Shown here piece by piece: positions 33,630 to 61,212 of a stretch of 64,000 nt of DNA. The number at the start of each line of letters is the position of its first letter. Within the stretch, counting starts at the first letter, position 1. Position numbers and translations under genes: made by a program. This DNA is from Pseudomonadota bacterium (GTDB lineage Bacteria; Desulfobacterota; Syntrophorhabdia; Syntrophorhabdales; Syntrophorhabdaceae): contig JAPLKB010000058.1 of the NCBI GenBank assembly GCA_026388275.1, positions 62,676-126,675 of the forward strand, read 5' to 3'. Under the pieces are notes generated by a model. It searched no databases, was not told the origin of the DNA, and saw only the letters and a list, made by a program, of their open reading frames with translations.

Positions 33630-33645
33630 CGGAAGTGAATGAAAG

Positions 33646-35541: not shown

Positions 35542-35543
35542 CT

Positions 35544-38491: not shown

Positions 38492-38495
38492 CGCT

Positions 38496-40644: not shown

Positions 40645-42585
40645 ATGATGAATATTAGCCCAGATATTAATAAAAAATATAATCTTTTATTTATTTTTAT
40701 TATCTTAATAGCAGGAGCTATTGCCTATTCCAATTCTTTTGACTGCTCGTTTCATTTTGATGACGAAAGGGTTTTAGACAGCAGTATTAAGACATATTCC
40801 ACGAGCATCAATGAAGTGATTCGTATCAACCCCACCCGCCCAATAGGTATGCTCACATTTGCCATTAACTACAATATCCACAGATTTGATGTCCGTGGAT
40901 ACCATCTGGTCAATCTGATAATTCACCTGATAAACGCACTTTTAGTCTGGCAGCTGACCTCTATTACCTTTTCCACTCCGGTCATGAAAGATGCGCCAAT
41001 CAGCAGAAACAAGACCATAATTGCCTTTTTGACCGGTTTACTTTTTGTAACCCATCCGCTGGCCACGCAGTCGGTTACATACATATCTCAACGTTTCACC
41101 TCGCTGGCAACATTATTTTACTTTTTATCTTTGATTTTATTTATCAGGGGAAGGCTCCGGCAGGGGAATAAGGGGATCGCTCTGTTTTTATTCGGTTCTT
41201 CACTTTTATCCGCTGTTTGCGGCATACTGACCAAAGAGATTGTCTTTACTCTGCCTTTTGCTGTTATTTTGTATGATTACTGTTTTTTTAAAACCTTTCC
41301 ATGGAAGTTGGAAGCTAACGATAAAATCCTCTTCTTTTCTTTTATTATTCTGGTAATCTTTATCTTCTTTTTGTTCAGGCATTTTTCGCTGAAAATATTC
41401 GATATTGTCCCGCCTGATCATGGATATTCATATGCCATATCAATGAAAGAATATTTTCTTACACAGTTCAGAGTAATCCTGACCTATATACGGCTTTTCC
41501 TTCTGCCTGTTAATCAGAATCTGGATTATAATTATCCGGTATCTGCCGGTTTTTTTCAGTTAAAGACTTTTTTCAGTTTTTTGGTATTGCTGGGAATTTT
41601 ATCTGCCGGTGTTTTGCTATTTAAAAGATACAGATTGATTTCTTTCGGGATATTCTGGTTTTTCCTGACTTTGTCCGTGGAATCAAGTATTATTCCGATT
41701 TCTCAGGATGTGATTTTTGAGCACCGCACCTATCTTTCGGGATTTGGTTTTTTTCTTGTCCTGACTGGAGTGTCATTTTATTTTATCAGAGAAAAACATC
41801 TTGGAATTGTCTTGATTCTTATCCTGATGATTGCCGTTCAATACACGGCACTGACATACCAGCGCAACAAAATATGGAAGGATGATTACACGCTGTGGGG
41901 TGATTGCATTAAAAAATCACCGGATAAGGCAAGGGTGAATCACAGTTTTGGTATTGCTCTGTCTCATATTAAAGGAAATGCCCGGGAAGCTATTTATTAT
42001 CATAACAAGTCCATCAGTCTGAGTAAGAATTATGCCGAACCTTATGACGGCAGGGGTTTTGCTTATTATATGCTTGGTCAGTATCAGCGTGCTGTTGAGG
42101 ATTACAATGAGGCCATTCGATTGAAGCCGCATATGGCTGAACTTTACAACAACAGGAGCTTTAGTTACTTAGCGCTTGGTCAGTATCAGCGTGCTGTTGA
42201 GGACTACAATAAAGCCATTCGATTGAAGCCGCATATGGTCGAACCCTACAACAACAGGGGCTTTGTTTACTACATTCTTGGTCAGTATCAGCGTGCCATT
42301 GAGGACTACAATAAAGCCATTTCTCTGAGACCGGATTATGCCGATTACTACAACAACAGGGGAAATACTTACGCTGAAATAGGACAGTATCAACATGCGT
42401 TTGAAGACTTTAATAAAGCCATACACCTGAGACCGGACTATGCCGGAGCCTACTACGATAACAGAGGAATGACCTATTTTAAACAAGGCAATAAGGAGCT
42501 TGGCTGTCGCGATGCACGAAAAGCATGCGAATTAGGAAATTGTAAAGCATTGGAAGTCGCTAAAGGCAAGGGAGACTGCCAATAA
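40645..42585 (+). CDS. TMTC-like membrane protein with C-terminal TPR repeats
   Basis: Protein of 646 aa. About ten hydrophobic helices fill residues 10-405, with F-H-F-D-D-E-R-V-L near 36-44 in the first outer loop, the GT-C acidic motif. R-P-I-G-M-L-T-F-A-I-N-Y and G-Y-H-L-V-N-L-I-I-H are typical of TPR-containing TMTC/PMT relatives. The tail (about 430-620) holds at least five 34-residue TPRs; three share nearly the same G-Q-Y-Q-R-A-V-E-D-Y-N-x-A-I text. Likely a glycosyltransferase or glycan-export accessory. Confidence 0.78.
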   Translation: MMNISPDINKKYNLLFIFIILIAGAIAYSNSFDCSFHFDDERVLDSSIKTYSTSINEVIRINPTRPIGMLTFAINYNIHRFDVRGYHLVNLIIHLINALLVWQLTSITFSTPVMKDAPISRNKTIIAFLTGLLFVTHPLATQSVTYISQRFTSLATLFYFLSLILFIRGRLRQGNKGIALFLFGSSLLSAVCGILTKEIVFTLPFAVILYDYCFFKTFPWKLEANDKILFFSFIILVIFIFFLFRHFSLKIFDIVPPDHGYSYAISMKEYFLTQFRVILTYIRLFLLPVNQNLDYNYPVSAGFFQLKTFFSFLVLLGILSAGVLLFKRYRLISFGIFWFFLTLSVESSIIPISQDVIFEHRTYLSGFGFFLVLTGVSFYFIREKHLGIVLILILMIAVQYTALTYQRNKIWKDDYTLWGDCIKKSPDKARVNHSFGIALSHIKGNAREAIYYHNKSISLSKNYAEPYDGRGFAYYMLGQYQRAVEDYNEAIRLKPHMAELYNNRSFSYLALGQYQRAVEDYNKAIRLKPHMVEPYNNRGFVYYILGQYQRAIEDYNKAISLRPDYADYYNNRGNTYAEIGQYQHAFEDFNKAIHLRPDYAGAYYDNRGMTYFKQGNKELGCRDARKACELGNCKALEVAKGKGDCQ

Positions 42586-42629
42586 ATAAAAACCTGGCGG
42601 GGCAAAAGGGTATGTGTAATAAAACTTCC

Positions 42630-42658
42630 TTGACAAAAAACTGACCGATACATAAGAT
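42630..42658 (+). promoter_or_regulatory. Promoter of the flavin reductase gene
   Basis: TTGACA (42630-42635) and TAAGAT (42653-42658) are separated by exactly 17 bases, about 40 bases before ATG 42699, which has AGGAGG upstream. Confidence 0.6.
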
Positions 42659-42698
42659 TTAAACGAATAAATTCAAATAATTCATAAAGGAGGATATT

Positions 42699-43271
42699 AT
42701 GGCAAAAATTGAATTAGGCAGCGACCGCTTACTTTTATCCTACCCGATGCCCTGTGCAATTGTTGGAGCAAAAGTTGAAGAAAAAGTAAATTATATTACG
42801 ATAGCCTGGTTAAGTATGGTAAATCCTGCGCCGCCATATCTGGCCCTTGCAATGAATAAGAACCATTATACAAATACCGGGATAAAAGCCAACGGGACCT
42901 TCAGCGTCAATATTCCATCTTCTGATCTGGTTGAGAAGACTGATTATTGCGGTATTGTTTCGGGCCGGAAGTTCGACAAGTCCGTTGTCTTCGAGACATT
43001 CTACGGCAAACTTGAAACAGCGCCGATGATCAGGGAATGCCCCTTTAACGTCGAATGCAGGCTGGTGCAGACAGTTAATCTGCCTGCCGAAGATCTTTTC
43101 ATCGGAGAAATTGTCGCAGCCTATTGCGATGATAAATGCCTCACCGAAGGCGTACCTGATTTGAGCAAAATAAACCCCTTTGTTCTTATCATGTCAGAAA
43201 GGAAGTACCGGGGACTCGGGCAGGATGTGGGTGCGGCCTGGGAGATGGGAAGGAAACTGATAAATAAATAG
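42699..43271 (+). CDS. Flavin reductase domain protein
   Basis: Protein of 190 aa of the FMN-binding split-barrel flavin reductase family: P-C-A-I-V-G-A-K-V near 18, N-Y-I-T-I-A-W-L-S-M-V-N-P-A-P-P near 31 and the middle F-S-V-N-I-P-S motif. Such proteins bind FMN and in anaerobes act as ferric/flavin reductases or High-potential electron carriers. Good ribosome binding site and promoter of its own, so it is likely transcribed alone or with the following remnant. Confidence 0.85.
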   Translation: MAKIELGSDRLLLSYPMPCAIVGAKVEEKVNYITIAWLSMVNPAPPYLALAMNKNHYTNTGIKANGTFSVNIPSSDLVEKTDYCGIVSGRKFDKSVVFETFYGKLETAPMIRECPFNVECRLVQTVNLPAEDLFIGEIVAAYCDDKCLTEGVPDLSKINPFVLIMSERKYRGLGQDVGAAWEMGRKLINK

Positions 43272-43326
43272 ATTTTCAAGGAAAAATCACAGGCAATGAA
43301 CAAATGGTGCATCCGGGGAGACAACA

Positions 43327-43500
43327 ATGAAACTGAAAAAAGACGACAAAGCACCATCCTTTGAATTATACGACCAGGATAACAGAATAGTAAAACTTAT
43401 TGATTTCGAGGGGCATAAATTGCTTCTTTATTTTTATCCGAAGGCCCTCACATTTTTAACAGGTAGTTATGGCAGACAGATCAATATTAGGAATCAATAA
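43327..43500 (+). pseudogene. Truncated peroxiredoxin (Bcp-like)
   Basis: A 57-codon frame starts MKLKKDDKAPSFELYDQDNR and reaches L-L-L-Y-F-Y-P-K-A, the segment just before the peroxidatic Cys in Bcp-type peroxiredoxins, then departs into unrelated sequence. The catalytic Cys is missing. The 3' end overlaps the start of the ABC ATPase gene by 32 bp, so a deletion or recombination has joined them. Confidence 0.7.
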
Positions 43501-44221
43501 TCTCACCAAGCATTACGGTGCAATTAAAGCCGTTGATGACGTTTCCCTTGAGGTCAACCCCGGTGAAATAGTCGGCCTTCTGGGTCCCAACGGGGCAGGG
43601 AAGACCACAATCATCAACATGATTCTTGGCATTCTCAAGCCCACGAGCGGATCTGTAGTGATATTGGGAAAGGATATTAAAAATCACCGGTCTGAAGTAA
43701 GCTCAAAAATGAATTTTGCCGCTGTTTATGCGCACCTGCCTGCAAATCTCACTGTTCGACAAAACCTTCTTGTCTTTGGCATGTTATATGGACAAAAAAA
43801 CCTGAAAGAAAAAATATCGCTTTTTTTACAGGACTTCGGTCTGCAGAAATTTGCCGATACTAAAGCAGGACTGCTCTCTTCGGGAGAGACCAGCCTTCTA
43901 AGTCTTGCCAAAGCTGTTATTAACAATCCCAGTCTGCTTTTACTCGACGAACCCACGGCTTCACTTGACCCGAGCATAGCCCGTGTTATTCGTGAAAAGA
44001 CAAAATCTTATGCAGTCAGTACCGGCGCAGCAATACTCTGGACATCACATAATATGAGCGAAATTGAGGCTGTCTGCGACAGAGTCCTTTTTCTCTCGCA
44101 CGGCAAAATCCTTCTCAGCGGCAATCCAACAACCCTTCCTGAACAATACGGAAAGAAAAACCTGGAAGAACTTTTTATTGCCGTTGCCCGCGAGCCTCTA
44201 CGTCTGGAACAAACTTTATGA
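43469..44221 (+). CDS. ABC transporter ATPase
   Basis: Protein of 250 aa. Walker A G-P-N-G-A-G-K-T near 39-46, a variant signature L-S-S-G-E in place of LSGGQ, and Walker B L-L-L-L-D-E-P-T-A-S-L-D. N-terminal order and length fit CcmA/NodI-type ATPases for drug, lipid or multidrug export. It overlaps the permease gene (ATGA). Substrate unknown. Confidence 0.87.
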   Translation: MADRSILGINNLTKHYGAIKAVDDVSLEVNPGEIVGLLGPNGAGKTTIINMILGILKPTSGSVVILGKDIKNHRSEVSSKMNFAAVYAHLPANLTVRQNLLVFGMLYGQKNLKEKISLFLQDFGLQKFADTKAGLLSSGETSLLSLAKAVINNPSLLLLDEPTASLDPSIARVIREKTKSYAVSTGAAILWTSHNMSEIEAVCDRVLFLSHGKILLSGNPTTLPEQYGKKNLEELFIAVAREPLRLEQTL

Positions 44222-45027
44222 ACCTTGCAAGAATCAAGGCCATTTTTCTCAGACAGTTGTTTCTGTTCAAAAGCAATCCAACAAGACTGGCCGGAATTTT
44301 TCTGTGGCTTGTCATCGATATTGTACAGTGGGGTTTCATAAGCAAATACCTCGGCTCTTTAGGAAAAGACACCTTCAGTTTTATTACCGTAATTCTCGGT
44401 GCAATAATCCTTTGGGAGTTTGCAACACGTATTCAGCAGGGGATTATGATGGCTTTTTTGGAAGACATCTGGACGCAGAATTTTTTGAATTTTTTTGCTT
44501 CACCTCTTACAATACTGGAATATCTCGGCGGACTGGTTTTGACAAGCATAACAACCGGTATGGCCGGTTTCGGCACCATAGCTTGTATTGCAGGTATGTT
44601 TTTCGGTTATAATGTACTGAAGATTGGCCTGCTGTTATTGCCTTTTATGCTTATACTACTTATATTTGCCGTTGCCATGGGGGTTTTTGTATCTGCCATG
44701 ATTTTCCGTCTCGGTCCTTCCGCGGAATGGCTTGGCTGGCCTATACCACTCATTATTTCAATTTTTGCAGGGGTTTATTATCCTGTCTCAACCCTTCCTG
44801 AGTCTATAAGAGGTATTGCAAGAATAATCCCGCCGGCATATGTTTTTGAAAGCTTGAGGAGAGTGCTCTACCCGGGTGTTTTGGGAGACAAGTTTATGCC
44901 GGATCTTCTTGTTGGTACTGTACTTGCGTTATTATACCTTGTTGCAGCATCCTTCTATTTTGTCAAAGTATACCAAAGGAACCTGATTACCGGAAGTATC
45001 GCCCGCTTTAATGCCGAATCACTTTAG
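44218..45027 (+). CDS. ABC-2 type transporter permease
   Basis: Protein of 269 aa with six hydrophobic segments from about residue 27 onward and the ABC-2 pattern F-A-G-V-Y-Y-P-V-S-T-L-P near 182. Its start overlaps the ATPase stop. The two form an export pair; nothing nearby identifies the cargo. Confidence 0.85.
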   Translation: MNLARIKAIFLRQLFLFKSNPTRLAGIFLWLVIDIVQWGFISKYLGSLGKDTFSFITVILGAIILWEFATRIQQGIMMAFLEDIWTQNFLNFFASPLTILEYLGGLVLTSITTGMAGFGTIACIAGMFFGYNVLKIGLLLLPFMLILLIFAVAMGVFVSAMIFRLGPSAEWLGWPIPLIISIFAGVYYPVSTLPESIRGIARIIPPAYVFESLRRVLYPGVLGDKFMPDLLVGTVLALLYLVAASFYFVKVYQRNLITGSIARFNAESL

Positions 45028-45066
45028 AATGATTTTAACTACCTGTCAACCATTCAACTAATTTGA

Positions 45067-45096
45067 TTGACAGCGATATCGTGAATATTGTAAATA
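45067..45096 (+). promoter_or_regulatory. Possible promoter of the aminotransferase gene
   Basis: TTGACA (45067-45072) and TAAATA (45091-45096) with an 18-base spacer, about 77 bases before ATG 45173. The -10 is imperfect. Confidence 0.35.
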
Positions 45097-45172
45097 GTAT
45101 CGTTCTGCCCTTGGTCAGAAAGAAGTAACACAACGATGATAGATATATAAATGAATCAAAGGAGGCTTCAAT

Positions 45173-46363
45173 ATGTTATCAAAAAGAGCAGAAATGTTGA
45201 AACCATCACCGACATTGGCAATTACCGCAAAGGAAAAGGCTCTCAAAGCAGAGGGTCTGGATATTGCCGGGTTCGGGGCAGGAGAACCGGATTTTGATAC
45301 TCCGGACCATATAAAACAGGCGGGGATAAAGGCTATTAATGATAATTTCACGAGATATACCCCTGCAACCGGAATTGATCCATTGAAGGACGCTGTCATT
45401 GAAAAATTTAAAAGAGATAATGATCTTGTATATAAACGGGATGAGGTCATAATATCCTGCGGCGGCAAACATACCCTGTACAATCTTTTTCAGACAATAT
45501 TTCAGGAAGGCGACGAAGTGCTGATACCTGTTCCTTACTGGGTTTCATACCCTCCTATGGTTGAGCTTGCAGGGGCAAAGCCGGTGTTTGTAGAAACATA
45601 TGAGAATGAAGATTATCAACTTACAGATGAGATGCTGAAGAAATATATAAATAAAAATACAAAAGGGATAGTCCTTAATTATCCTTCAAACCCTGTCGGT
45701 TCAATCTTTTATCGAGAAAATTTGGAAAAGATCGGGAAACTGGCAGTTGAAAATGACTTTTATATTATCTCCGATGAGATTTATGAAAAGCTTGCCTATG
45801 ATGAATATGTCCACATGAGCATTGCATCGATGGATCCTTCTTTTAAAGAAAAAACCATCATCTGCCACGGCGTTTCAAAAACATATGCAATGACGGGGTG
45901 GAGAATCGGTTTTGCTGCCGGTCCGGCGCCAGTCATAAAGGCAATGGGCAATATCCAGAGCCAGAGCACGTCCAATCCCACATCAATTGCGCAGGTTGCC
46001 GCAGTTGCAGCCTTGAACGGTCCGCAGGATAGTATTGCCTTAATGGTAAAAGAGTTTAAAAAAAGACGGGACTATCTTGTGAATGAATTGAGAGGCATAG
46101 ACGGAGTGACCTGCTACAGCCCAGGCGGTGCCTTTTATGTATTCCCCAATTTTAATACCATACTCGGTAAAAATTATAAGGGCAAGGTAATCGAAAACTC
46201 TTCGGTATGGACAGAAGTGCTGCTCGAAGGATTTCACACGGCAGTGGTGCCGGGAGTCGAATTCGGTAAAGAGGGCTATATAAGGCTGTCCTTTGCAACA
46301 TCCATGGAAGTTATCCAAAAAGGAGTAGAGAGAATAAAACATGCAGTTTCATTGCTTAAATAG
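45173..46363 (+). CDS. Class I/II aspartate-type aminotransferase
   Basis: Protein of 396 aa, normal length. Key positions: G-A-G-E-P-D-F-D-T-P near 38, S-D-E-I-Y-E near 200 and the PLP lysine in S-K-T-Y-A-M-T-G-W-R-I-G near 235. Typical of the aspartate/2-oxoglutarate group (AspC/AspB family). AGGAGG lies 7 bases before ATG 45173. It stands alone with its own terminator downstream. Confidence 0.92.
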   Translation: MLSKRAEMLKPSPTLAITAKEKALKAEGLDIAGFGAGEPDFDTPDHIKQAGIKAINDNFTRYTPATGIDPLKDAVIEKFKRDNDLVYKRDEVIISCGGKHTLYNLFQTIFQEGDEVLIPVPYWVSYPPMVELAGAKPVFVETYENEDYQLTDEMLKKYINKNTKGIVLNYPSNPVGSIFYRENLEKIGKLAVENDFYIISDEIYEKLAYDEYVHMSIASMDPSFKEKTIICHGVSKTYAMTGWRIGFAAGPAPVIKAMGNIQSQSTSNPTSIAQVAAVAALNGPQDSIALMVKEFKKRRDYLVNELRGIDGVTCYSPGGAFYVFPNFNTILGKNYKGKVIENSSVWTEVLLEGFHTAVVPGVEFGKEGYIRLSFATSMEVIQKGVERIKHAVSLLK

Positions 46364-46430
46364 TGGTAAGTGAAGCTATTAAGCTATTATATTAGATATA
46401 TATAACAAAATATTAAAGTAATATCTTAAT

Positions 46431-46483
46431 AAAAAACCATATCCTATTGATACTAAAGTAAATATAGATATGGTTTTTTATTT
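46431..46483. terminator. Bidirectional terminator between convergent genes
   Basis: AAAAAACCATATC (46431-46443) pairs with GATATGGTTTTTT (46467-46479) around a 23-base loop, with T runs on both strands. It serves the aminotransferase gene and the convergent methyltransferase gene. Confidence 0.85.
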
Positions 46484-46493
46484 ATGATGTGTT

Positions 46494-47375
46494 TTAAAGC
46501 TCTAACCACGAATCAGAATACAGAGTCTGACCGAGAAGTACTCTTGTGGTTTTCACGTAATTCATCTCTTCTTTTGAAAACTTTGAAATATCAATTTCCT
46601 CCCCGTCCATTACTTTGTGCACAAGTGCTTCGAGTTCAGGCCTTTTACCTTTTACGATAGCCCTCAGTTCCGTATCAAAGGCATCGACGATTGCCGAATA
46701 AATACCGTATCGCTTTATCATAATGAGATAAGTTCTGTTGAGAATCCCCCTGAGGTTGTTGGGCGTCCCGTTTGATACATTAGAAAGTCCGCAGGTTGAC
46801 TTGGAAGAAGGCGAAAGGTCGGGGAGCATCATGACAAATTCAGTGCAGCCCTGTAGCTGAGCCTGCTGAGTGTTGATAGGCAGTACAATAGGGTCGAACC
46901 ATATATCTTCTTCTTTTAAGTCGTACCCTGCTGCTTCTGCCATAATCTGAGCGGCAAGTAACCCTCTTTCATTTGAATCCCTTGGAATACCTTCCGGTCC
47001 GAGGGTGAGCCCGATAAAATAAGCGCCGTATTGTTTTGCCAGGGGCATAAGGGCTGCCATTCTTTCGGGCCGTGCGGAAATAGAGTTAATTAATGCCTTA
47101 CCCTTGTGTGCCCGCAACCCGGCCTCTATGGCTTCTATATTCATAGTGTCCAGAGAAAGAGGGATGTCAGTTACCTCCTGCACTGTTTTTACAACCCACT
47201 CCATAAGTTCAGGCCCTTCTTTACGGGCAGGCCCGAGATTTATGTCTATCAAATCCATACCGGCCTCAGTTTGAGCTTTTGCCATGGCCCTGATGGGTAC
47301 AGGGTCTCTTTGCTTCAGAGCTTCCCCGATTTTTTTAGACATGACATTAAGGTTTTCCCCTATAAGTTTCATCAT
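46494..47375 (-). CDS. Pterin-binding methyltetrahydrofolate methyltransferase, AcsE-like
   Basis: Protein of 293 aa with the pterin-binding TIM-barrel fold: L-I-G-E-N-L-N near the start, D-L-I-D-I-N-L-G-P near 43, P-L-S-L-D-T-M-N near 73 and N-S-I-S-A near 95. Members move methyl between tetrahydrofolate and a corrinoid protein. The C-terminal 60 residues extend past the usual end. Second ATG 47372 has the better-spaced GAGGAG. It lies next to the corrinoid gene set but on its own transcript. Confidence 0.85.
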   Translation of the reverse strand: MMKLIGENLNVMSKKIGEALKQRDPVPIRAMAKAQTEAGMDLIDINLGPARKEGPELMEWVVKTVQEVTDIPLSLDTMNIEAIEAGLRAHKGKALINSISARPERMAALMPLAKQYGAYFIGLTLGPEGIPRDSNERGLLAAQIMAEAAGYDLKEEDIWFDPIVLPINTQQAQLQGCTEFVMMLPDLSPSSKSTCGLSNVSNGTPNNLRGILNRTYLIMIKRYGIYSAIVDAFDTELRAIVKGKRPELEALVHKVMDGEEIDISKFSKEEMNYVKTTRVLLGQTLYSDSWLEL

Positions 47376-47731
47376 TATCTCCTCTTTCTAATTTGGTCCA
47401 ATGCACTATGCAAGATCTATGGTAACATATAATATATAAAAGCGTGTCGAGACGCAACATTTTGTATTTCTGTAAATGAGACTCCATCATGTGGCAAGGA
47501 TGTTGCATTTTAGTAAAGTTACGATGACATCTTCTTCTGAAGCTTAAGAAACTTCAAAAACAACAGGTAAAGGTTATAAGACATTGAAATTATGGATTGT
47601 GTTATAAGTATTTTAAAGGAACTATTGAATTAATCCGGGATAGAACTTATTCTTCAAGTGGCGGGTCATGTCTTATTGACCCTTGAGAATCAGGATGTTA
47701 GACTGAATGGATATGCTAAAGGCGGTAATAG
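47376..47731. promoter_or_regulatory. Divergent intergenic region with a hairpin before the activator gene
   Basis: About 356 bases between the AcsE-like gene and the activator gene. It contains GGGTCA...TGACCC (47663-47682) with TCAAG/TTGA outside, about 50 bases before ATG 47732. No cobalamin riboswitch consensus was seen. Promoters in both directions are expected but not clearly resolved. Confidence 0.4.
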
Positions 47732-49606
47732 ATGCAAGTTGATTTTGAACCCATTGGAAAGCGTGTGATATGCGAAGGTGGAACGACGCTGCTCGAGGCG
47801 GCACAGAAGGCAGGTGTGATGCTGACGGCAATATGCGGCGGCGAAGGTTCCTGCGGAAGGTGTATTGTGCGAGTAATGGAGGGGGATGTCTCGCCCCCGA
47901 CAGTCAGCGAAAAGTTGTTATTGGGCGACGATTCAACTCTTGATCTGCGACTGGCCTGTCAGACCAGAATCGTAGGCGATGTGCGTGTCCATGTCCCACC
48001 GGACTCCCTGGTATCGGCACAGCGCATTCAGACTGAAGGACAGATGCCTGTTATTGAAATGCATCCGGCCGTGCGTGCCATTGATGTTTGTATCGAGACG
48101 CCCTCCATGTCTGATCCACGTTCTGATGCAAGACGATTGGTGGACGCATTGGAATGTCATATATCCGGGGCTGATGATAATCGCATGTGCATTGATATAC
48201 AGGCGATGCGTGATATGCCTGTAGATTTACGCGCATGGAATTGGCAGGCCTGTGCATTTGTGCGAGACCCCGAAAGCCCTAAGATCGCTGTTGACCCGGC
48301 TGACAGGTGTAATAACGACAACCCCGCAGGCACGAAGCTGCTGCCTGAGGTAATCGCCTTGCGTCCTGCCGGCACAGTACCCCTGGGACTGGCAGTTGAC
48401 ATCGGAACGACCAAGATTGCTGCGTACCTTGTTGACTTGGTAAGCGGGGACATACTGGCGTCAATGGGGGCAATGAACCCGCAGATTGCCTATGGTGAAG
48501 ACGTGATAGCTCGTATTAATCATGCAGTCAGTAAACAAGATGGAGCACGGCAACTGGCTGAAGCTGTTGTTGAAGCAATAAACGGCCTGTCGGATGATCT
48601 CTGTGCACATGCCGGACGTAACGCGGCAGATATTGCAGACGCGGTTTTTGTCGGCAACACAGCAATGCACCACATATTTCTGGGCTTACCTGTCAGGCAG
48701 CTGGGGCTGGCTCCGTATGTTCCAGCATGCACTGACCCCATCGATGTTAAGGCACGGGAAGTTGGACTTAAATTTGCCTCAGGCGCCTATATTCATTTAC
48801 TGCCCAACATTGCCGGGTTTGTGGGTGCGGACCATGTTGCAATGCTGCTTGCAACAGAACTGGCAGAACATGACGGCGTCGTGTTGGGTATAGACATCGG
48901 CACCAACACTGAAATCAGCTTGCGTGCCCGTGGACGACATTTAACATGTTCAACGGCATCCGGTCCGGCTTTTGAAGGTGCGCACATCCGCCATGGTATG
49001 CGTGCCGCACCAGGAGCTATTGAAAAAGTAATGATCCGTGATGGACATGTGTACTTCAGAACTGTTGACAATGCGCCGCCTGTTGGATTGTGTGGCTCAG
49101 GTATCCTTGACGTAATGGCGCAATTATTGCGTGCAGGCATACTTGATAAGCGCGGCGGCATGAAAGATCATCCTCTTGTCAGACGTGGAAATGCCGGTGC
49201 TGAGTTTATCGTTGTATCTGGTGAAGAAAATAATGGAAGCGAAATTAGCTTCAGCCGTTCAGATGTTACAGAGATTCAATTAGTCAAAGCAGCGATTCGT
49301 GCAGGAATTCACATCCTGTTAAATCATGCTGATGTTTCTGAAGCAGACATTGACGAGGTAATTATTGCCGGGGCCTTCGGGACATATCTTGATGTGCAGA
49401 GCGGCATTGACATAGGCATGTTCCCTTCTGTAGATCGTTATCGTTTTCGGCAGGTGGGCAATGCTGCAGGTGCAGGCGCATGTATGGCCCTTCTTTCGGT
49501 TGTAGAGCGCGAACATGCAGCACGGATAGCGAAGCAGATCGAATATGTTGAATTAAGCTCTGAAAAAGGATTTCAGTCTGAATTTACGCGTGCATTGTTT
49601 TTTTAA
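47732..49606 (+). CDS. Corrinoid activating protein, RACo/RamA type (DUF4445)
   Basis: Protein of 624 aa. The N-terminal 2Fe-2S ferredoxin domain has Cys35, Cys41, Cys44 and Cys76. The following middle and C-terminal domains (from about 215: L-G-L-A-V-D-I-G-T-T-K-I-A, then V-F-V-G-N-T-A-M-H and V-L-G-I-D-I-G-T-N-T-E) form the ASKHA ATPase-like fold of reductive activators. It uses ATP and low-potential electrons to return Co(II) corrinoid proteins to Co(I). It faces the corrinoid cluster and very likely serves it. Confidence 0.92.
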   Translation: MQVDFEPIGKRVICEGGTTLLEAAQKAGVMLTAICGGEGSCGRCIVRVMEGDVSPPTVSEKLLLGDDSTLDLRLACQTRIVGDVRVHVPPDSLVSAQRIQTEGQMPVIEMHPAVRAIDVCIETPSMSDPRSDARRLVDALECHISGADDNRMCIDIQAMRDMPVDLRAWNWQACAFVRDPESPKIAVDPADRCNNDNPAGTKLLPEVIALRPAGTVPLGLAVDIGTTKIAAYLVDLVSGDILASMGAMNPQIAYGEDVIARINHAVSKQDGARQLAEAVVEAINGLSDDLCAHAGRNAADIADAVFVGNTAMHHIFLGLPVRQLGLAPYVPACTDPIDVKAREVGLKFASGAYIHLLPNIAGFVGADHVAMLLATELAEHDGVVLGIDIGTNTEISLRARGRHLTCSTASGPAFEGAHIRHGMRAAPGAIEKVMIRDGHVYFRTVDNAPPVGLCGSGILDVMAQLLRAGILDKRGGMKDHPLVRRGNAGAEFIVVSGEENNGSEISFSRSDVTEIQLVKAAIRAGIHILLNHADVSEADIDEVIIAGAFGTYLDVQSGIDIGMFPSVDRYRFRQVGNAAGAGACMALLSVVEREHAARIAKQIEYVELSSEKGFQSEFTRALFF

Positions 49607-49612
49607 ACGCAG

Positions 49613-50314
49613 CTAAGAATTGGGAAAAAAGTCTTCGAACCTTATGGATTGACCCGGCTTGACAACAATGAACTCATCATCCCAGGGTCCGTTAAGTATT
49701 TTATTTACCATGATTGTCGATCCTTCGATCTCTTCGTACCTCAATCCGAATCGCTGAGCGGTGTTGCGCGCATATTCCCGATAAGATTCCATAGAATGCT
49801 GTCCTGTATTAATGAGTGCGAGACGCTTATAGTTGTTTAGCATAAGATGCATTATCCGATCAGCGTGTTTTTGGCCACGGCTTGCCACCATGCGTTCATA
49901 CTCGGAGAAGGGGCTCTCGCCCACCTCAATCCAGCCTTTAGTAAGGTAATATGTTCCCGGCTCAGACCTGGACTGCTGGTGGTAGGCTGAGCATGAGCCA
50001 AGAAAAATAGCAATGCAGTCATCTACACGCGGCACAACCAGCGTACAGTTTTTTGAGTGTAATCCAATTACACCCTGTGAACAAAGTCCATAGCCCAGGA
50101 TAATAGTATCGAACTGGCCTTCTGATTCATTAATGGTATCCTGAAGTGCCTGGCGAAGTTTGGAGGGATTTACATGGAGGCCGAAATCAAGAATCCTGTA
50201 TTCCACATCAGGCGGCAACAGAGGTAACATCTCTTCAATAACAGTGGCACAGGCTATGACTAACTTTCTTGTTTTGGTTATTGCAAATTTGTTTTCTGTA
50301 CAATGCGCTGACAA
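49613..50314 (-). CDS. DUF1638 protein of the corrinoid cluster
   Basis: Protein of 233 aa. Family pattern: L-V-I-A-C-A-T-V near residue 18, G-Y-G-L-C-S-Q-G-V-I-G-L near 74, and C-I-A-I-F-L-G-S near 99. DUF1638 genes often accompany corrinoid methyltransferases, but their function is unknown. The start overlaps the corrinoid protein gene by 37 bp; internal alternatives cannot be ruled out. Convergent with the activator gene. Confidence 0.82.
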   Translation of the reverse strand: MSAHCTENKFAITKTRKLVIACATVIEEMLPLLPPDVEYRILDFGLHVNPSKLRQALQDTINESEGQFDTIILGYGLCSQGVIGLHSKNCTLVVPRVDDCIAIFLGSCSAYHQQSRSEPGTYYLTKGWIEVGESPFSEYERMVASRGQKHADRIMHLMLNNYKRLALINTGQHSMESYREYARNTAQRFGLRYEEIEGSTIMVNKILNGPWDDEFIVVKPGQSIRFEDFFPNS

Positions 50315-50940
50315 ATCCGCACTCCCTCCATAGCGTCAGTAACCCAGAAATCTGCACCGACAAAACGACAGATCTCCTCGCTTAATGTACTCCCGCCGAT
50401 AATAATAGGTATAGCAGTTTGCCTTGATATACTGTGCTCTTTTATCAAATGTGTCGTTTCTCTCATGCTTTCATAGGCAACTGATACCAGTCCTGAAAGA
50501 CCAATGATATCGGGGGGATTTTTTTGTATATTTTCAATAAATTTTTGCGGCGGCACATCTATGCCGAGGTCTTCAACGGTAAATCCATAACAACGAAGAG
50601 CCAGTTCAACAATATCTTTGCCGATGTCGTGAATATCGCCCTGAACCGTTCCCAGCAAAACTCTCCCCGAAGCATTGCCCACTAAGCGTTGTTCCATAGA
50701 GGGTTGACTGATTGCCATTACTTCACGAAAGATCTCTCCGGCCATGATAAATGCAGATAAGTAATACTCCCGCTTCTCATAACGTTCGCCTACCAGTCGC
50801 ATAGCATGTTCGCAGTCCTGAATAATGTCCAGCGGATCCTGCCCTTTATCCAGTAAGTGCCGGACGGCCTTAAGGACATAAGTTTCATCAAGGTCAGCGA
50901 GATGTGCGATCAGTTCTTTTCTGCTATTTTTTTCTGTCAT
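50278..50940 (-). CDS. Corrinoid (B12-binding) methyl-carrier protein 1
   Basis: About 220 aa: an N-terminal helical cap (methionine synthase B12-binding cap), then a Rossmann B12 domain with D-I-H-D-I-G-K, His104 being the lower cobalt ligand, and L-S-G-L-V and I-I-I-G-G-S. ATG 50940 with AGGAG just upstream is preferred to TTG 50970. Methyl groups are carried between two methyltransferases on this protein. Operon with the GntR gene upstream and DUF1638 downstream. Confidence 0.92.
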   Translation of the reverse strand: MTEKNSRKELIAHLADLDETYVLKAVRHLLDKGQDPLDIIQDCEHAMRLVGERYEKREYYLSAFIMAGEIFREVMAISQPSMEQRLVGNASGRVLLGTVQGDIHDIGKDIVELALRCYGFTVEDLGIDVPPQKFIENIQKNPPDIIGLSGLVSVAYESMRETTHLIKEHSISRQTAIPIIIGGSTLSEEICRFVGADFWVTDAMEGVRICQRIVQKTNLQ

Positions 50941-50947
50941 ATCTCTC

Positions 50948-51706
50948 CTAAAGATCGGCGCCGGCGCCAATATAAGTTGTGAGCTTGAAATAATCAGCCC
51001 GACAGATAAACCCTCCCCAACTTACAAGTTGGTCATTGAAATCATAGAAAAAATGCTCAAGGTAAAATGCTGCTGTTCCAACAGGAATTTTAAGCTGTTC
51101 GGACTCTTCCTCTCTGATATTGACCGGTTCAATAGTCAGATGACCTCGACTCAACCCTCCGCTGCTTTGTCCCTGCAGCAAACCCTCCAATAATGTTATC
51201 TGGAGCTGTGCCTCCAACAGAGGACGTTTAGGATCGTAGACCACATATTCACGGTGATACATGGTCGGTACATTTTCATTTAATACAAGCCTCCTCAAAT
51301 AGACGGTTCGCTCACCGGGTGCAATAGCCAGTTTACGGGCCACGCGTTCGTCAGCAGACACTATACGTGCCTCCAATAACCGAACGGTTGTACTATCCCC
51401 CTGAGACCAGTTATTCTTTAATTCCTGGAGCCGGAAAACTGCCTCGCCAATGTTGAGAGATTTGACAAATGTGCCCTTTCCCTGGGTGGCGCTGACAAAT
51501 CCTCTTTCAACAAGGATGTTTATGGCACGACGTACGGTCATGGGACTGATGTTATATTGTGTGCAGAACTGGGCTTCTGCAGGCAGTTGATCGCCTGAGC
51601 GTAAAATGCCTGAGGCAATCTGCTCGCTTACAATGCGCACGAGCTGCATATAGGCAGGTTCATAGGAGCTGCGGTCAATGATTTTAGTCTTGGTATCCTG
51701 GTTCAT
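50948..51706 (-). CDS. GntR-family regulator with UTRA domain
   Basis: Protein of 252 aa. Winged-helix N-terminus: Y-M-Q-L-V-R-I-V-S-E-Q-I-A-S-G, P-A-E-A-Q-F-C-T-Q-Y-N-I-S-P-M-T-V-R-R-A near 40-60, then the UTRA ligand-sensing domain (about 90-245) as in the HutC subfamily. It is transcribed with corrinoid protein 1 and away from corrinoid protein 2 across an AT-rich palindromic region, so it likely controls both in response to a substrate or product. Confidence 0.9.
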   Translation of the reverse strand: MNQDTKTKIIDRSSYEPAYMQLVRIVSEQIASGILRSGDQLPAEAQFCTQYNISPMTVRRAINILVERGFVSATQGKGTFVKSLNIGEAVFRLQELKNNWSQGDSTTVRLLEARIVSADERVARKLAIAPGERTVYLRRLVLNENVPTMYHREYVVYDPKRPLLEAQLQITLLEGLLQGQSSGGLSRGHLTIEPVNIREEESEQLKIPVGTAAFYLEHFFYDFNDQLVSWGGFICRADYFKLTTYIGAGADL

Positions 51707-52004
51707 TAAGGTACCGGTTTCCTTTTAATAAATTTATATATATAAATATAGAGCATTATGCTTGACAATTTATATATATAATATACAATATAAAAAAATA
51801 TAGGTCAAGAGGAACGGAAAAACGTTATATTGTCCCGATATACACAAACATAGCACTTGACAGATAAGAAGTTTTTTCAGTTTTATCTTTTTGTCCGACA
51901 ACGTTGATATGCTCGAGAACGCTGAATCAAGGGGGTGACAAGAGAGGCAAAAGTATTTACTACTGAATACTGAAGAACCTAATTTAAAGTGAGGAGGTAA
52001 AGGC
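51707..52004. promoter_or_regulatory. Divergent promoter region with AT palindromes
   Basis: Toward corrinoid protein 2: TTGACA (51762-51767) and TACAAT (51784-51789), spacer 16. Toward gntR: minus-strand TTGTCA (51763-51768) and TTATAT (51740-51745), spacer 17. The perfect palindrome ATTTATATATATAAAT lies at 51732-51747 and a close second copy AATTTATATATATAATAT begins at 51768. These two blocks would let the GntR protein govern both promoters. The plus transcript would have a leader of about 210 bases. Confidence 0.55.
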
Positions 52005-52634
52005 ATGGCCGAAGATATGGTTAACGCGTTAGCTGATTTAAAAGAAGATGAAGTTTTAAAAATGGTTCAGGACAGATTGAATGCCGGCGAAGAGCCGCTA
52101 AAAATTCTTGATGATGCAAGACGTGCACTGGAAATTGTTGGAGAACGTTTTGCTGCCGGCGAGTATTTCATACCCGATCTGCTATATTCCGGCGAGATAC
52201 TGAAAGGTATCACTGCTATAGTTAAACCGGAACTATCGAAGACAACTGAAGCAAAAAAACTGGGTAAGATTGTTTTTGGCACTGTTGCAGGCGACATACA
52301 TGATATTGGCAAAGACATTGTAGCTTTTATGCTTGATGTAAATGGTTTTGAGGTTTATGACCTTGGAGTTGATGTTCCTGTGCCGACATTTGTGGAGAAA
52401 ATAAAGGAAACCGGCGCCACTATTGTTGGTTTAAGCGGGTTCTTAACACTGGCCTTTGATTCGATGAAACAGACAATACAAGCCATAAAAGATGCAGGTT
52501 TGAGAGATAAAGTAAAGATTATGATTGGTGGCGGTCAGATTGATGAACAGGTAAGAGGCTATGTTGGGGCAGATGCATATGGGAAAGATGCTATCGAAGC
52601 CGTAAATCTGGCAAAATCCTGGATAGGGGGGTAA
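52005..52634 (+). CDS. Corrinoid (B12-binding) methyl-carrier protein 2
   Basis: Protein of 209 aa with the same cap plus B12-domain layout as carrier 1: A-G-E-E-P-L-K-I-L-D-D-A-R near 28-40, then D-I-H-D-I-G-K with His99 and L-S-G-F-L and I-G-G-G. GGAGG precedes ATG 52005. It is directly followed, 4 bp on, by the URO-D-like methyltransferase gene, its probable methyl donor partner. Confidence 0.93.
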   Translation: MAEDMVNALADLKEDEVLKMVQDRLNAGEEPLKILDDARRALEIVGERFAAGEYFIPDLLYSGEILKGITAIVKPELSKTTEAKKLGKIVFGTVAGDIHDIGKDIVAFMLDVNGFEVYDLGVDVPVPTFVEKIKETGATIVGLSGFLTLAFDSMKQTIQAIKDAGLRDKVKIMIGGGQIDEQVRGYVGADAYGKDAIEAVNLAKSWIGG

Positions 52635-52638
52635 GTCA

Positions 52639-53976
52639 ATGGAGAAGAAATGGGAAGAGATGTCAGCAGCAGAAAAGAGAGCATCGAGATTTGAAACATG
52701 GCTGGCTGCCACAGGTATCGAGTTTCAGAACGCTGAGGCTGAAGCCAACTTTAAAGCAGCCGTCACAAGATTTAAGGACATCGTACTCATGGAAAAGGTT
52801 CCGGACAGGGTGCCTGTGCTGCCTTTCGGAATATTTATGCAAACCAACTTATATGGTGTAACGCCATATGAATCAATGTACGATACTGACAAAATGCTTT
52901 CAACTCAAGCAAGCTTTATTAAGGATTATGGGCCTGACTATTATACTACACCAGCCCTTGTCGGTTACGGAAAAATCTTTGATATTCTTGATTATAAACA
53001 GTACAAGCTGCCGGGACATGGGATCTCGGAAAAATCTGCCTACCAGTACGTGGAAGGCGAATACATGCTGGCAGAGGAGTACCCGTTACTCATCAATGAT
53101 CCAACAGATTTCTGGATCAGATGCCTGATGCCTCGCGTTTACGGAGCACTCGATCCATTGAAAATGATTACCCCCTTTACTGATAATTGGGAGGTAGTAA
53201 CAGTCTCGGCACAAATGATACCCTTTGGTATCCCACCGGTTCAGAACGCCTTAAAGGCGCTATTGGAAGCAGGAAATGAGGCCATGGCATGGATACAGAA
53301 AGTTATAGGCTTTGAGATGCAAGCCAGGGGTATGGGCTGCCCAGGTTGTTTTGGAGGCGCAACAAAAGCTCCCTTTGATATTCTCGGGGACACCCTGAGG
53401 GGGACACGCGCTGCAATGATGGACATGTATCGGCGTCCGGACATGGTTTTGAAAGCTGTTGAAAGGCTCACGCCCCTTGCTATCAGCCAGGGTGTGAGAG
53501 GTGCAACGATGCAGGGCTGTCCGGTTGTGTTTATCCCTCTACATAAGGGTGCTGACGGGTTTATGTCGGATGCACAGTTCAGAGAATTTTACTGGCCTAC
53601 TTTAAAGGCAGTTATCCTTGGGCTGGCAGCCGAGGGGTGCGTGCCCTTCCTGTTCTGTGAGGGGTCATACAACACTCGGCTTGAGTATCTGAAGGAACTC
53701 CCGGAGACCTCCTGTATGTGGGTATTTGATCGCACAGATATGGCTGTAGTGAAAGAAAAGATTGGAAAGAAGTTATGCATTGGCGGAAACATTCCATCAG
53801 GGTTGCTGCTGACCGGCACCGCTGACGATGTAAGGGCATATTGCAAAAACCTTATCGATATAGCAGGAAAAGGCGGCGGATATCTTATGTGCACAGGGAC
53901 AGCTATGGATGAAGGTAAAGCCGAGAATGTCCACGCAATGATTGATTTCACAAAAGAATATGGGGTATACAAATAA
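52639..53976 (+). CDS. URO-D/MtaA-like methyltransferase or O-demethylase (substrate:corrinoid)
   Basis: Protein of 445 aa, uroporphyrinogen decarboxylase fold but larger than HemE. P-D-R-V-P-V-L-P-F-G near 56-65, G-V-T-P-Y-E-S-M-Y near 76, C-V-P-F-L-F-C-E-G near 330 and C-I-G-G-N-I-P-S near 380 fit the MtaA/CmuA/demethylase branch. The Zn-ligand His-x-Cys of MtaA is not evident; Cys in L-F-C-E-G is in that place. It likely transfers the methyl group of a methoxylated or methylated substrate to corrinoid protein 2. Confidence 0.82.
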   Translation: MEKKWEEMSAAEKRASRFETWLAATGIEFQNAEAEANFKAAVTRFKDIVLMEKVPDRVPVLPFGIFMQTNLYGVTPYESMYDTDKMLSTQASFIKDYGPDYYTTPALVGYGKIFDILDYKQYKLPGHGISEKSAYQYVEGEYMLAEEYPLLINDPTDFWIRCLMPRVYGALDPLKMITPFTDNWEVVTVSAQMIPFGIPPVQNALKALLEAGNEAMAWIQKVIGFEMQARGMGCPGCFGGATKAPFDILGDTLRGTRAAMMDMYRRPDMVLKAVERLTPLAISQGVRGATMQGCPVVFIPLHKGADGFMSDAQFREFYWPTLKAVILGLAAEGCVPFLFCEGSYNTRLEYLKELPETSCMWVFDRTDMAVVKEKIGKKLCIGGNIPSGLLLTGTADDVRAYCKNLIDIAGKGGGYLMCTGTAMDEGKAENVHAMIDFTKEYGVYK

Positions 53977-54002
53977 AAAATGGGGTAGGGACCCTGATAC
54001 CG

Positions 54003-54043
54003 GAGGAGAGACTATGATATATAAGACGATCAGGTCTCTCCTC
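54003..54043 (+). terminator. Stem-loop after the methyltransferase gene
   Basis: GAGGAGAGAC (54003-54012) pairs perfectly with GTCTCTCCTC (54034-54043) around a 21-base loop. Few T residues follow, so it may be an attenuating or RNA-processing hairpin between the two parts of the operon rather than a strong terminator. Confidence 0.5.
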
Positions 54044-54188
54044 GCTGTAGTTTAAAATACCCCTTGTTATCTTGTCAGTGTGAAACCCCCTAATTTATGT
54101 CATAAACATGTTGGGCAGCATTGGTGGGATTAATTTGATGACAATTGTTTTTTTGCTTTTTACTGAATAAATTATAAAGGAAGGATAT

Positions 54189-54992
54189 ATGCAAATCATC
54201 GGAGAAAAAATCAATGGTACGCGCACGCAGGTCCGTACTGCCATAGTCAACAGAGATGTAGAATTTATTAAAAGCCTTGCAAAAGATCAGGTCAACGCAG
54301 GAGTGGACTTACTGGATGTGAATGCCGGTACGACTCCGGACAGGGAACCCGATGATTTAGTCTGGTTAGTGACGATGGTGCAGGAAGCAGTCGATGTCCC
54401 TTTGTGTATAGACAGCACCAACGTTGTTGCTTTAACCGAAGCGTTAAAGTATGCAAGGCAGGTGCCGATGATCAATTCTATAAGCGGTGACCCTGAACGG
54501 TTGGAAAATATGCTTCCTATTGTTGCAAAGCATAATTGTGCAGTCATTGCATTGGCTCTTGACGAATCAGGTATTCCGAAAAGCGTAGAAGACCGCATGA
54601 AGGTATTAAAAAGGGTTTTCAATGCTACTCGTGATGCAGGAATATCCGACGAAAAGATTTATACAGACCCTTTGATTATGACTATCGGCACTGATACACG
54701 GGCTGGATTGATAGCGTTGGAATCGATGAGGGCTATTAAGAGGGAGTATCCTAAAGCACACATAACAAGCGGTCTGAGTAACATATCATTTGGTTTGCCG
54801 GGCCGTGCCTTAATTAACAGAACTTTTCTGACATTGGCACTGGAAGCCGGTCTTGATTCTGCCATAATGGACCCTACGAACCAGGGTCTTCGTGAATCTC
54901 TGCTTGTATCAGAACTTTTATTGGGAAAGGATTCCTTCTGCAGGAAATATACACAAGCCTTCAGAGCAGGTTTGATAGCAAAAAACAAATAA
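54189..54992 (+). CDS. Pterin-binding methyltetrahydrofolate:corrinoid methyltransferase
   Basis: Protein of 267 aa, normal for the AcsE/MtvC-like MT2 group: I-I-G-E-K-I-N near the start, D-L-L-D-V-N-A-G near 41-48, L-C-I-D-S-T-N near 77 and I-N-S-I-S-G near 97, the pterin-binding barrel. It should move methyl from the corrinoid protein to tetrahydrofolate. AAGGAAGG lies upstream. It completes the three-component set with the genes at 52005 and 52639. Confidence 0.88.
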   Translation: MQIIGEKINGTRTQVRTAIVNRDVEFIKSLAKDQVNAGVDLLDVNAGTTPDREPDDLVWLVTMVQEAVDVPLCIDSTNVVALTEALKYARQVPMINSISGDPERLENMLPIVAKHNCAVIALALDESGIPKSVEDRMKVLKRVFNATRDAGISDEKIYTDPLIMTIGTDTRAGLIALESMRAIKREYPKAHITSGLSNISFGLPGRALINRTFLTLALEAGLDSAIMDPTNQGLRESLLVSELLLGKDSFCRKYTQAFRAGLIAKNK

Positions 54993-56535: not shown

Positions 56536-57468
56536 TCAAGGTCCCTCTTCGACAAGCAAAGGGTCCTGTTTGCTATTATACCATCTTACCACCCGTCCGG
56601 CTTCAAAATCGACGTATGAGAATCCATAGCTCCACCTGCTTCCTGAAATTTGTGTCGGAGTCCCCTGTATTGCCAGTACATCGTCCGTTGTAGAGCCTAA
56701 TGTAAAGTATTCTTTTTGTATGTCAGGTGTCTTGAGGGGCGCCATCTTGATATGCAGGGGTTCAAGCTTGCTGTTATACCATCTTACCACCCGTCCGGCT
56801 TCAAAATCGACGTATGAGAATCCATAGCTCCACCTGCTTCCTGAAATTTGTGTCGGAGTCCCCTGTATTGCCAGTACATCGTCCGTTGTAGAACCTAATG
56901 TAAAATATTCTTTTTTTGCTAATATATTGTTTTTCATTTTAGTAGTAGTTGTTTTGACTGAAGGTTTACCATGAACCGCTGGTTTTACGGTTGATGGTTC
57001 AACGACATCGGATTTGGAAGATTTTATCTGATCCGGCATTAAAATAGCGGGGGATGTATTGGACTCAGGCCGTTTATTTAGATGGATTATTACGATAATT
57101 GTCAGTATGACCAAAACACAAATTACCGTAATCCATGCTAAAAGACTATAATCTTTGGCGTTGGTTCCGGTATTGCCAATCTGTGCCTCAGGATATTGCT
57201 CAGCAATTACTTCTTCCTGTGTTGCATCTGGATAAAGATGTGTGTCTAAAGTGTTATTCTTGTTTTCATAAAAGGATAATAGCTTTTCATAAGCGATATT
57301 TATTTCTTTGAGTTTTTCGGTTGCTTTTTTCTGTAAGCGGGGGTTTTCAATAAATCGGTCAGGATGCCAAACCCTGGCCAGGTCCTTATATGCCTGTTTC
57401 GTCTCTTCAAGTGAAGCATGTATGGAAATTCCGAGAACCTGAAAATATTTCTTAATCAGTGGATCCAA
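56536..57468 (-). CDS. Membrane J-domain protein with duplicated C-terminal module
   Basis: Protein of 310 aa. J-domain at 1-68 (Y-F-Q-V-L-G-I near 8, W-H-P-D-R near 34 with the HPD motif), a membrane helix near 110-130, a Pro/Thr/Lys-rich linker, and two nearly identical 49-residue modules (F-T-L-G-S-T-T-D-D-V-L-A-I-Q-G-T-P then Y-G-F-S-Y-V-D-F) near residues 190-240 and 255-305, which resemble small beta modules after SmpA/OmlA-like proteins. The J-domain should recruit DnaK at the cytoplasmic face. Confidence 0.8.
   Translation of the reverse strand: MDPLIKKYFQVLGISIHASLEETKQAYKDLARVWHPDRFIENPRLQKKATEKLKEINIAYEKLLSFYENKNNTLDTHLYPDATQEEVIAEQYPEAQIGNTGTNAKDYSLLAWITVICVLVILTIIVIIHLNKRPESNTSPAILMPDQIKSSKSDVVEPSTVKPAVHGKPSVKTTTTKMKNNILAKKEYFTLGSTTDDVLAIQGTPTQISGSRWSYGFSYVDFEAGRVVRWYNSKLEPLHIKMAPLKTPDIQKEYFTLGSTTDDVLAIQGTPTQISGSRWSYGFSYVDFEAGRVVRWYNSKQDPLLVEEGP
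56569..56915 (-). repeat. 198-bp internal tandem duplication in the J-domain gene
   Basis: Two blocks of about 148 bp (near 56569-56717 and 56767-56915), offset by exactly 198 bases, differ at only a few positions. The 198-base period keeps the frame and encodes one 66-residue unit (49-residue module plus 17-residue spacer). The near identity points to a recent duplication. Confidence 0.8.
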
Positions 57469-60110: not shown

Positions 60111-60126
60111 ATTTATTCAATCTCCA

Positions 60127-61104: not shown

Positions 61105-61145
61105 GTTATTGTATATACACCTTTATATCGGGGGGCTGTTTATTT

Positions 61146-61188
61146 AAAAGGCCACGCTCCATCATTTTCCGGTGAAGCGTGGCCTTTT
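61146..61188. terminator. Strong bidirectional terminator
   Basis: AAAAGGCCACGCT (61146-61158) pairs with AGCGTGGCCTTTT (61176-61188), 13-bp stem and 17-base loop, flanked by A/T runs on both sides. It ends the TRAP binding-protein transcript before the CoA-transferase genes. Confidence 0.9.
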
Positions 61189-61212
61189 ATTAAAGATCAA
61201 AGTTGAAAATAA

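Follow-up and report, generated by a model that had tools for sequence, protein, structure and literature searches.

Which methyl donor is served by a corrinoid-dependent methyltransfer system whose substrate enzyme is of no familiar type? The question is raised by a locus in an anaerobic sediment bacterium assigned to the Syntrophorhabdaceae (Desulfobacterota). We analysed a stretch of 64,000 nucleotides, termed the window, from its genome (GenBank assembly GCA_026388275.1, contig JAPLKB010000058.1, forward-strand positions 62,676 to 126,675). Eight genes between window positions 46494 and 54992 encode the system, the core of which is a substrate methyltransferase (MT1) with the URO-D fold. 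Comparative sequence analysis suggests that the locus probably encodes a three-component corrinoid O-demethylase that controls its own expression and acts on methoxylated acids of plant origin, which are probably aromatic. Systems of this kind are known. No characterised member was found, however, for the MT1 subfamily or for a group of GntR-linked corrinoid carriers.

The locus has the components of Mtv-, Odm- and Mto-type demethylases: a URO-D-fold MT1 encoded with a carrier, a capped carrier with a B12 motif, a demethylase-type MT2 (the methyltransferase that acts on methyl-corrinoid and tetrahydrofolate, THF), and a RACo-type activator. The substrate class is suggested by three observations, namely active-site residues like those of MtvB, the presence of a subfamily member in the mtv locus of Moorella, and organic-acid transporters encoded beside relatives. 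The original prediction raised the possibility of a new methylated or methoxylated substrate. Such a substrate is possible, but these observations point to methoxylated, probably aromatic, acids and not to new chemistry.

Gene content and order of the locus

All eight predicted genes are intact, and comparisons with Pfam and NCBIfam profiles gave the expected families. On the forward strand, a corrinoid protein that is presumably the carrier of MT1 (CP2, 52005-52634; B12-binding cap and B12-binding domain) is followed after 4 nt by the 445-residue MT1 (52639-53976; PF01208, 74 bits) and, after a further 212 nt, by MT2b, a predicted methyl-corrinoid:THF methyltransferase (54189-54992; PRK07535, 335 bits, above the cut-off). 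On the reverse strand lie a GntR/UTRA regulator (50948-51706; GntR and UTRA domains), a second corrinoid protein that may be a carrier or a sensor (CP1, 50278-50970; also with a cap and a B12-binding domain), and a DUF1638 protein (49613-50314; PF07796, 161 bits). As called, the reading frames of GntR and CP1 overlap, as do those of CP1 and DUF1638; translation of CP1 may well begin instead at an in-frame ATG at position 50940. The remaining two genes encode a RACo/RamA-type ATP-dependent corrinoid activator (47732-49606, forward strand), which has all RACo domains and Fer2, and MT2a (46494-47375, reverse strand; Pterin_bind, PF00809). The activator gene runs towards DUF1638 and away from MT2a. 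The layout therefore comprises four transcription units. Thus, gene content, family matches and layout uphold the proposal of a complete system that has two carriers and a dedicated GntR regulator, arranged as two opposed operons flanked by the activator and another MT2. Judged by these families, CP2, MT1 and MT2b make up a carrier/MT1/MT2 set that is served by a dedicated RACo-type activator.

A relative from the genus of the window organism (locus L038) retains the whole gene order, and one from its family (L039) retains URO-D-CP2, GntR-CP1-DUF1638 and RACo, without MT2a. A 16S search of the window genome gave no match, and its lineage was judged here from relatives. This conservation indicates that the layout is not a product of chance and that the URO-D core is real and conserved.

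Two known systems resemble the present one in their make-up. MtoABCD of Methermicoccus shengliensis, which acts on methoxybenzoate, and OdmABCD/VdmB of Acetobacterium dehalogenans are accompanied by an activator, a major facilitator superfamily (MFS) transporter and a regulator (PMC8630106). Unlike the window system, Mto uses tetrahydromethanopterin.

A distinct subfamily of URO-D-fold methyltransferases

An alignment-based scan of named genomes produced 421 places that encode members of the MT1 subfamily, and no characterised member was found among these relatives. The subfamily is carried by Deltaproteobacteria (Desulfobacterota and others), Chloroflexota (Dehalococcoidia and Anaerolineae), Spirochaetota, Bacillota (Desulfovirgula, Moorella mulderi, Frackibacter and Natroniella) and Asgard archaea. 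Neighbourhood counts given below rest on 80 loci kept of the 421, with MT1 proteins that range from 88% to about 46% identity to that of the window; loci are truncated at contig ends, and the counts of neighbours are therefore minimum values.

In a tree of 59 sequences, MtvB-type proteins form one clade (support 100/100) and the window family forms a separate clade (100/97). Paralogues linked to TRAP transporter genes sit beside the window clade. The window genome has its own URO-D paralogue, on contig C59, which is 43% identical to MT1 and lies beside a TRAP DctP gene (51% identity). CdmB, represented by its C-terminal half only, falls outside both clades on a long branch, which makes its position unsure.

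The original prediction held that the substrate enzyme is not an obvious MtaB, MttB or standard vanillate type, and this assessment agrees with our results. Pfam assigns MT1 to URO-D only, NCBIfam gives no MtaB or MttB model, and MT1 lies outside the Moorella MtvB clade. Membership in the MtaA/CmuA/MtbA type is contradicted by a score of 28 bits against TIGR01463 (cut-off 235) and by the absence from MT1 of the zinc motif HxC. Also absent from window MT1 are the zinc motifs E-X14-E-X20-H and D-X27-C-X39-C, which we take to be those of OdmB/VdmB/MtoB-type enzymes. The Moorella enzyme is likewise without zinc (PMC13222342).

The original prediction also named clustering with a characterised demethylase as evidence that would count against it. 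MT1 does not cluster with MtvB types or with CdmB; these two, the former represented by the MtvB-type proteins of M. thermoacetica, were the characterised references compared, and OdmB, VdmB and MtoB were not among them.

Several candidates were set aside. An alignment entry at L055:7144-8484 that resembled a URO-D gene is a transporter and was removed, and long opposite-strand open reading frames in GC-rich relatives (cluster c20) are not genes. The bathyarchaeal MtgB is a different protein of about 300 residues with no homology to known MT1 enzymes (PMC10989822).

Some further proteins occur near URO-D genes. A protein of ~242 residues that has no Pfam or NCBIfam match is often encoded directly downstream of URO-D (L076:6562-7290 and 14 other loci; cluster c10). 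A short URO-D-like protein (~290 residues) lies between RACo and MT2 in order-level relatives (L043:12768-13640, L044, L045 and L046). The window genome also has a second corrinoid cluster (L054; contig C28, about 42236-47423) that encodes a molybdopterin oxidoreductase, a carrier and two MtaA/CmuA-like URO-D proteins.

Active-site residues

In the alignment, H302, K303, G304, A305, D306 and E341 are invariant in the window family. MtvB has H, mostly R, G, A, Y and E at the same positions, and the MtvB signature LH[KR]GA..F.S, together with Glu at 341, is present in window MT1. CdmB has Trp at the position of H302 and Gln at that of E341. In an AlphaFold2 model (pLDDT 94.8), residues 302, 341, 364, 384 and 420 come directly after barrel strands 296-301, 335-340, 360-363, 380-383 and 415-419, positions that would form the usual catalytic face of the barrel.

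Cleavage of an ether requires assistance to the leaving oxygen, whereas loss of chloride does not. Therefore, retention of the His and Glu residues would favour O-demethylation and disfavour haloalkanes. In addition, a carboxylate could be bound by R347, a residue that never varies in the family but is Tyr in MtvB. We propose that the substrate of MT1 is a methoxylated compound, probably a carboxylated aromatic, whose O-methyl group is offered to Co(I) on CP2. His302, Lys303 and Glu341 may assist departure of the oxygen or keep the substrate in place.

These residues bear on whether the locus could instead encode a haloalkane dehalogenase of the Cdm type, in which MT1 would merely guide chloromethane to Co(I). 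The chloromethane dehalogenase CdmBCA of A. dehalogenans, like the window system, comprises a URO-D-fold MT1, a carrier and an MT2 (PMC13222342), and CdmB (9rui) is the only sequence relative of MT1 in the PDB. However, identity between the two is about 28-32% and confined to the C-terminal half, which is below the 40% level that the CdmB authors used for close homologues. The active site of CdmB is hydrophobic, with the Trp and Gln noted above, while window MT1 keeps polar His, Lys and Glu residues, of which His302 and Glu341 are invariant both in its family and in MtvB. Organic-acid transporters would also make no sense for a gas. We therefore regard the Cdm type as extremely improbable. Fold searches with the MT1 model gave UroD, MtbA and MetE relatives; CdmB structures were not among the matches from a library extending to April 2026, which has no bearing on the relation to CdmB.

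A relative in the Moorella mtv locus

Genome G072, which we take to be that of M. thermoacetica DSM 521 and in which the order of gene tags agrees, has a cluster at 1.25 Mb with the order MT2 (265 residues), URO-D (390), CP (207), MFS, URO-D (447), DUF1638, GntR, CP1, GntR. The 447-residue URO-D protein (L182:9530-10873) is 48% identical to window MT1, and the 389- and 390-residue MtvB-type proteins of M. thermoacetica are 35-37% identical to it. The window GntR is 37% identical to the GntR of this mtv locus. A published list includes mtvC2 (c12950), "mtaB2" (c12980) and mtvC3 (c13000) (PMC13391211). Because tag order and spacing match that list, the 447-residue protein corresponds to Mothe_c12980. 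By this tag order, the gene listed as "mtaB2" appears to encode an MT1 of the URO-D type rather than a methanol methyltransferase.

The comparison with M. thermoacetica shows both likeness and difference. MtvABC, like the window system, comprises a URO-D-fold MT1, a corrinoid carrier and a methyltetrahydrofolate (CH3-THF) methyltransferase, and the H-[KR]-G and Glu signature is common to MtvB and window MT1. One cluster of DSM 521 combines a subfamily member with MtvB-type genes, GntR, CP1 and DUF1638. However, window MT1 is ~55 residues longer than MtvB and lies outside the well-supported MtvB clade, and CP2 belongs to a carrier group other than that of MtvC. Mothe_c12980 is of the same subfamily as window MT1 and likewise lies beside GntR, CP1 and DUF1638. 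In contrast to window MT1, it is next to an MFS transporter and mtvCBA-type genes and has no CP2-MT1-MT2b operon of its own; it is not characterised.

The MT1 subfamily is large and spans uncultured anaerobes of several phyla and Asgard archaea, whereas M. thermoacetica, which has one member, can be cultured. A test of the M. thermoacetica gene would give the substrate class for hundreds of genomes. It would also show how syntrophic and sediment bacteria feed the methoxyl groups of lignin into the Wood-Ljungdahl pathway.

Transporters and the likely substrate

Among the 80 loci, MT2 genes are neighbours in 27, activator genes in 20, at least two LIV-type ABC transporter genes in 19, and TRAP genes in seven. 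At L055, a gene for an aromatic-acid/H+ symporter follows URO-D. At L139, CP1-GntR is divergent from CP2-DctPQM-URO-D-URO-D-MT2, and the DctP is 50% identical to that of the window. Within the window, genes for coenzyme A (CoA) transferase subunits A and B and for TRAP DctP, DctM and DctQ occupy 59352-63999 on the reverse strand and may serve uptake and activation. Because L139 has a related TRAP transporter inside a demethylase cluster, these TRAP and CoA-transferase genes are plausible partners of the system.

A different possibility is that the same machinery acts on a non-aromatic methyl donor, such as an O-methylated aliphatic acid, a methylated amine or a sulfur compound. Non-aromatic anions, too, are carried by transporters of the LIV-type ABC and TRAP families, residues of MT1 differ from those of MtvB, and halophilic or alkaliphilic members of the subfamily (Frackibacter, Natroniella) may meet other methyl compounds. 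However, the MtvB-like signature in MT1, the subfamily member inside the M. thermoacetica mtv locus, the aromatic-acid symporter beside the relative at L055, and the lack of any MttB or MtaB family match all argue against a non-aromatic donor, which we consider unlikely.

Demethylation of methoxylated, probably aromatic, acids is thus preferred, but several points weigh against it. The TRAP genes of the window are separated from the operon by 5 kb that includes unrelated genes, and the operon itself has no aromatic-degradation genes. The types of transporter beside relatives vary, so substrates may vary as well, and no assayed member was present in the subfamily as found. Finally, MtvB has Tyr in place of R347 and D306, Gly in place of N384 and Cys in place of Y401, and the specificity of the window family may differ accordingly.

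Methyl transfer to tetrahydrofolate

The best PDB match of MT2b is 4o0q (233 bits, versus 180 bits for AcsE), which is of the same set as 4o1e and 4o1f and is presumably the demethylase MT2 of D. hafniense. Structures 4o1e and 4o1f have been used for modelling of MTII ligands (PMC13222342). MT2b would pass the methyl group from CP2 to THF.

MT2a shows the reverse preference, with 192 bits for AcsE (2yci) versus 115 bits for 4o0q; it also scores 207 bits on a curated AcsE model, for which the curated score is 370. Only three PF00809 genes are present in the whole genome, encoding FolP (judged by score), MT2a and MT2b, and genes for CODH, ACS, AcsD and AcsV are present. Because its best match is AcsE, only two pterin-binding genes other than FolP exist, and CODH/ACS is encoded, MT2a is probably an AcsE-type CH3-THF:corrinoid/iron-sulfur protein methyltransferase, and so a Wood-Ljungdahl link rather than a part of the demethylase. 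The "second MT2" of the original prediction is therefore present as a Pterin_bind gene, but it probably serves the downstream step. CH3-THF formed by MT2b would enter the Wood-Ljungdahl pathway, where MT2a could hand the methyl group to the corrinoid/iron-sulfur protein.

Alternatively, MT2a might be a true second MT2 of the demethylase, dedicated to CP1, with the real AcsE gene lying in an assembly gap. MT2a adjoins the system in two genomes, and contig C28, which bears AcsD, ends just past that gene and could hide another AcsE. This assignment, otherwise compatible with an O-demethylase, is possible but not favoured, given that AcsE leads the matches by 77 bits and that MT2a and MT2b are the only candidates besides FolP in a genome with Wood-Ljungdahl genes.

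Corrinoid activation

The window RACo protein scores 373 bits against RACo (3zyy). On NF040756 it scores 416 bits, versus 669 bits for a separate AcsV on C28. Because it is distinct from AcsV, it is probably the demethylase's own activator. In Phaeobacter, DUF1638 shows cofitness with genes for a RamA-like protein and a split methionine synthase (PMC5764234). By analogy, the DUF1638 protein is a probable helper of corrinoid reactivation. With its aid, the RACo protein would draw on ATP and a low-potential electron to return Co(II) to Co(I).

The Phaeobacter data invite another interpretation, in which CP1, MT2a, DUF1638 and RACo form a split methionine synthase or methyl-donating module that carries methyl groups from CH3-THF via CP1 to homocysteine. 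Neither MetH (TIGR02082) nor MetE (PF01717) was found in the genome, which is 3.5 Mb and 99.5% complete. The marine alphaproteobacterial set MtgC/MtgD/DUF1638/RamA resembles the window in having a carrier encoded beside DUF1638, a RamA-like activator and a pterin methyltransferase (PMC5764234, PMC12478193), and one carrier is in shared use in Ruegeria (PMC12478193). However, the window differs in its URO-D-type MT1, in its link to GntR, and in having no homocysteine domain: a whole-genome search with the MetH profile gave pterin and B12 domains only, with no homocysteine-methyltransferase domain. Moreover, the module is tied to GntR and URO-D genes across phyla, which suggests catabolism, and MT2a is AcsE-type and is absent beside the module in genome G009. 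A methionine module is thus very improbable.

The GntR-linked corrinoid protein

The best PDB match of both CP2 (169 bits) and CP1 is 4jgi, the carrier of a putative O-demethylase, and the motif GDxHDxGK...S...GG is intact in both. A carrier gene is directly upstream of URO-D in 54 of the 80 loci, and in all 11 loci that contain GntR, this gene adjoins a CP gene on the same strand. In a tree of 73 carriers, the 19 GntR-linked CPs require only two label changes, compared with a mean of 16.9 after shuffling; none of 500 shuffles gave so low a value. GntR-linked CPs group with MtvC, apart from nearly all URO-D-linked carriers, although branches are long and exact joins unsure. They are marked by Cys53 (19/19), Cys201 (84%) and Cys220 (89%), positions that mostly hold Ala or Arg in the URO-D-linked carriers. 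Those with Cys53 occur in the window (50278-50970) and at L107, L116, L119, L123, L126, L132, L139 and L182. Thus, two carriers are present, as originally predicted, but they are not interchangeable duplicates, since CP1 belongs to a separate, conserved, GntR-linked group.

At L183, a GntR-linked carrier is the sole carrier adjoining URO-D, so proteins of the group may act as carriers. CP1 might instead be a signalling partner of GntR, a Cys53-marked corrinoid protein rather than a second methyl carrier. Its methylation or oxidation state, or its recharging with the help of DUF1638, would then report the availability of methyl donor to GntR. If so, both the corrinoid state and the substrate would control the divergent operons. 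We consider this improbable. Loss of B12 binding by CP1 was rejected, as core residues are intact in all 19 proteins. No three-Cys metal site is claimed either; by reasoning only, the helices that bear Cys201 and Cys220 should face opposite sides of the flavodoxin-type fold.

Predicted regulation

The gap between GntR and CP2 contains two predicted operators. Operator 1, a perfect palindrome (ATTTATATATATAAAT, 51732-51747), lies between the GntR start and the divergent promoters, and operator 2 (ATTTATATATATAAT, 51768-51782) overlaps both of these promoters. The predicted promoter of CP2-URO-D-MT2b (51762-51789, forward strand; TTGACA-N16-TACAAT, 11/12) is the best in the region, and that of GntR-CP1-DUF1638 is at 51780-51808 on the reverse strand (TTGACC-N17-TATATT, 10/12). 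These divergent sites, which overlap operator 2, outscore every other promoter match across 8.9 kb; the total of promoter-like sites in the region is not above chance. The sequence AATTTATATATATAA occurs exactly twice in the 3.5-Mb genome, both times in this gap. The operator block is 89-90% conserved, versus 52-72% for the remainder of the gap.

The natural reading of this arrangement is that GntR very probably represses both divergent operons via the two predicted operators. Binding of the substrate, or of a product, to the UTRA domain would release GntR from them. How such systems are regulated has been explored little, as has been stated for Acetobacterium (PMC13222342), and the GntR-CP1-DUF1638 module, with its defined predicted operator, is a testable candidate. 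Operator-like TATATA palindromes at other loci are no more than suggestive.

Other features of the window

Two features elsewhere in the window are of separate interest. A long block of glycosyltransferase, nucleotide-sugar and ABC export genes (22365-40224) resembles a surface polysaccharide locus. A DnaJ-like protein encoded at 56536-57468 has, in its C-terminal half, a near-exact tandem copy of a segment of ~45 residues (YFTLGSTTDDVLAIQG...).

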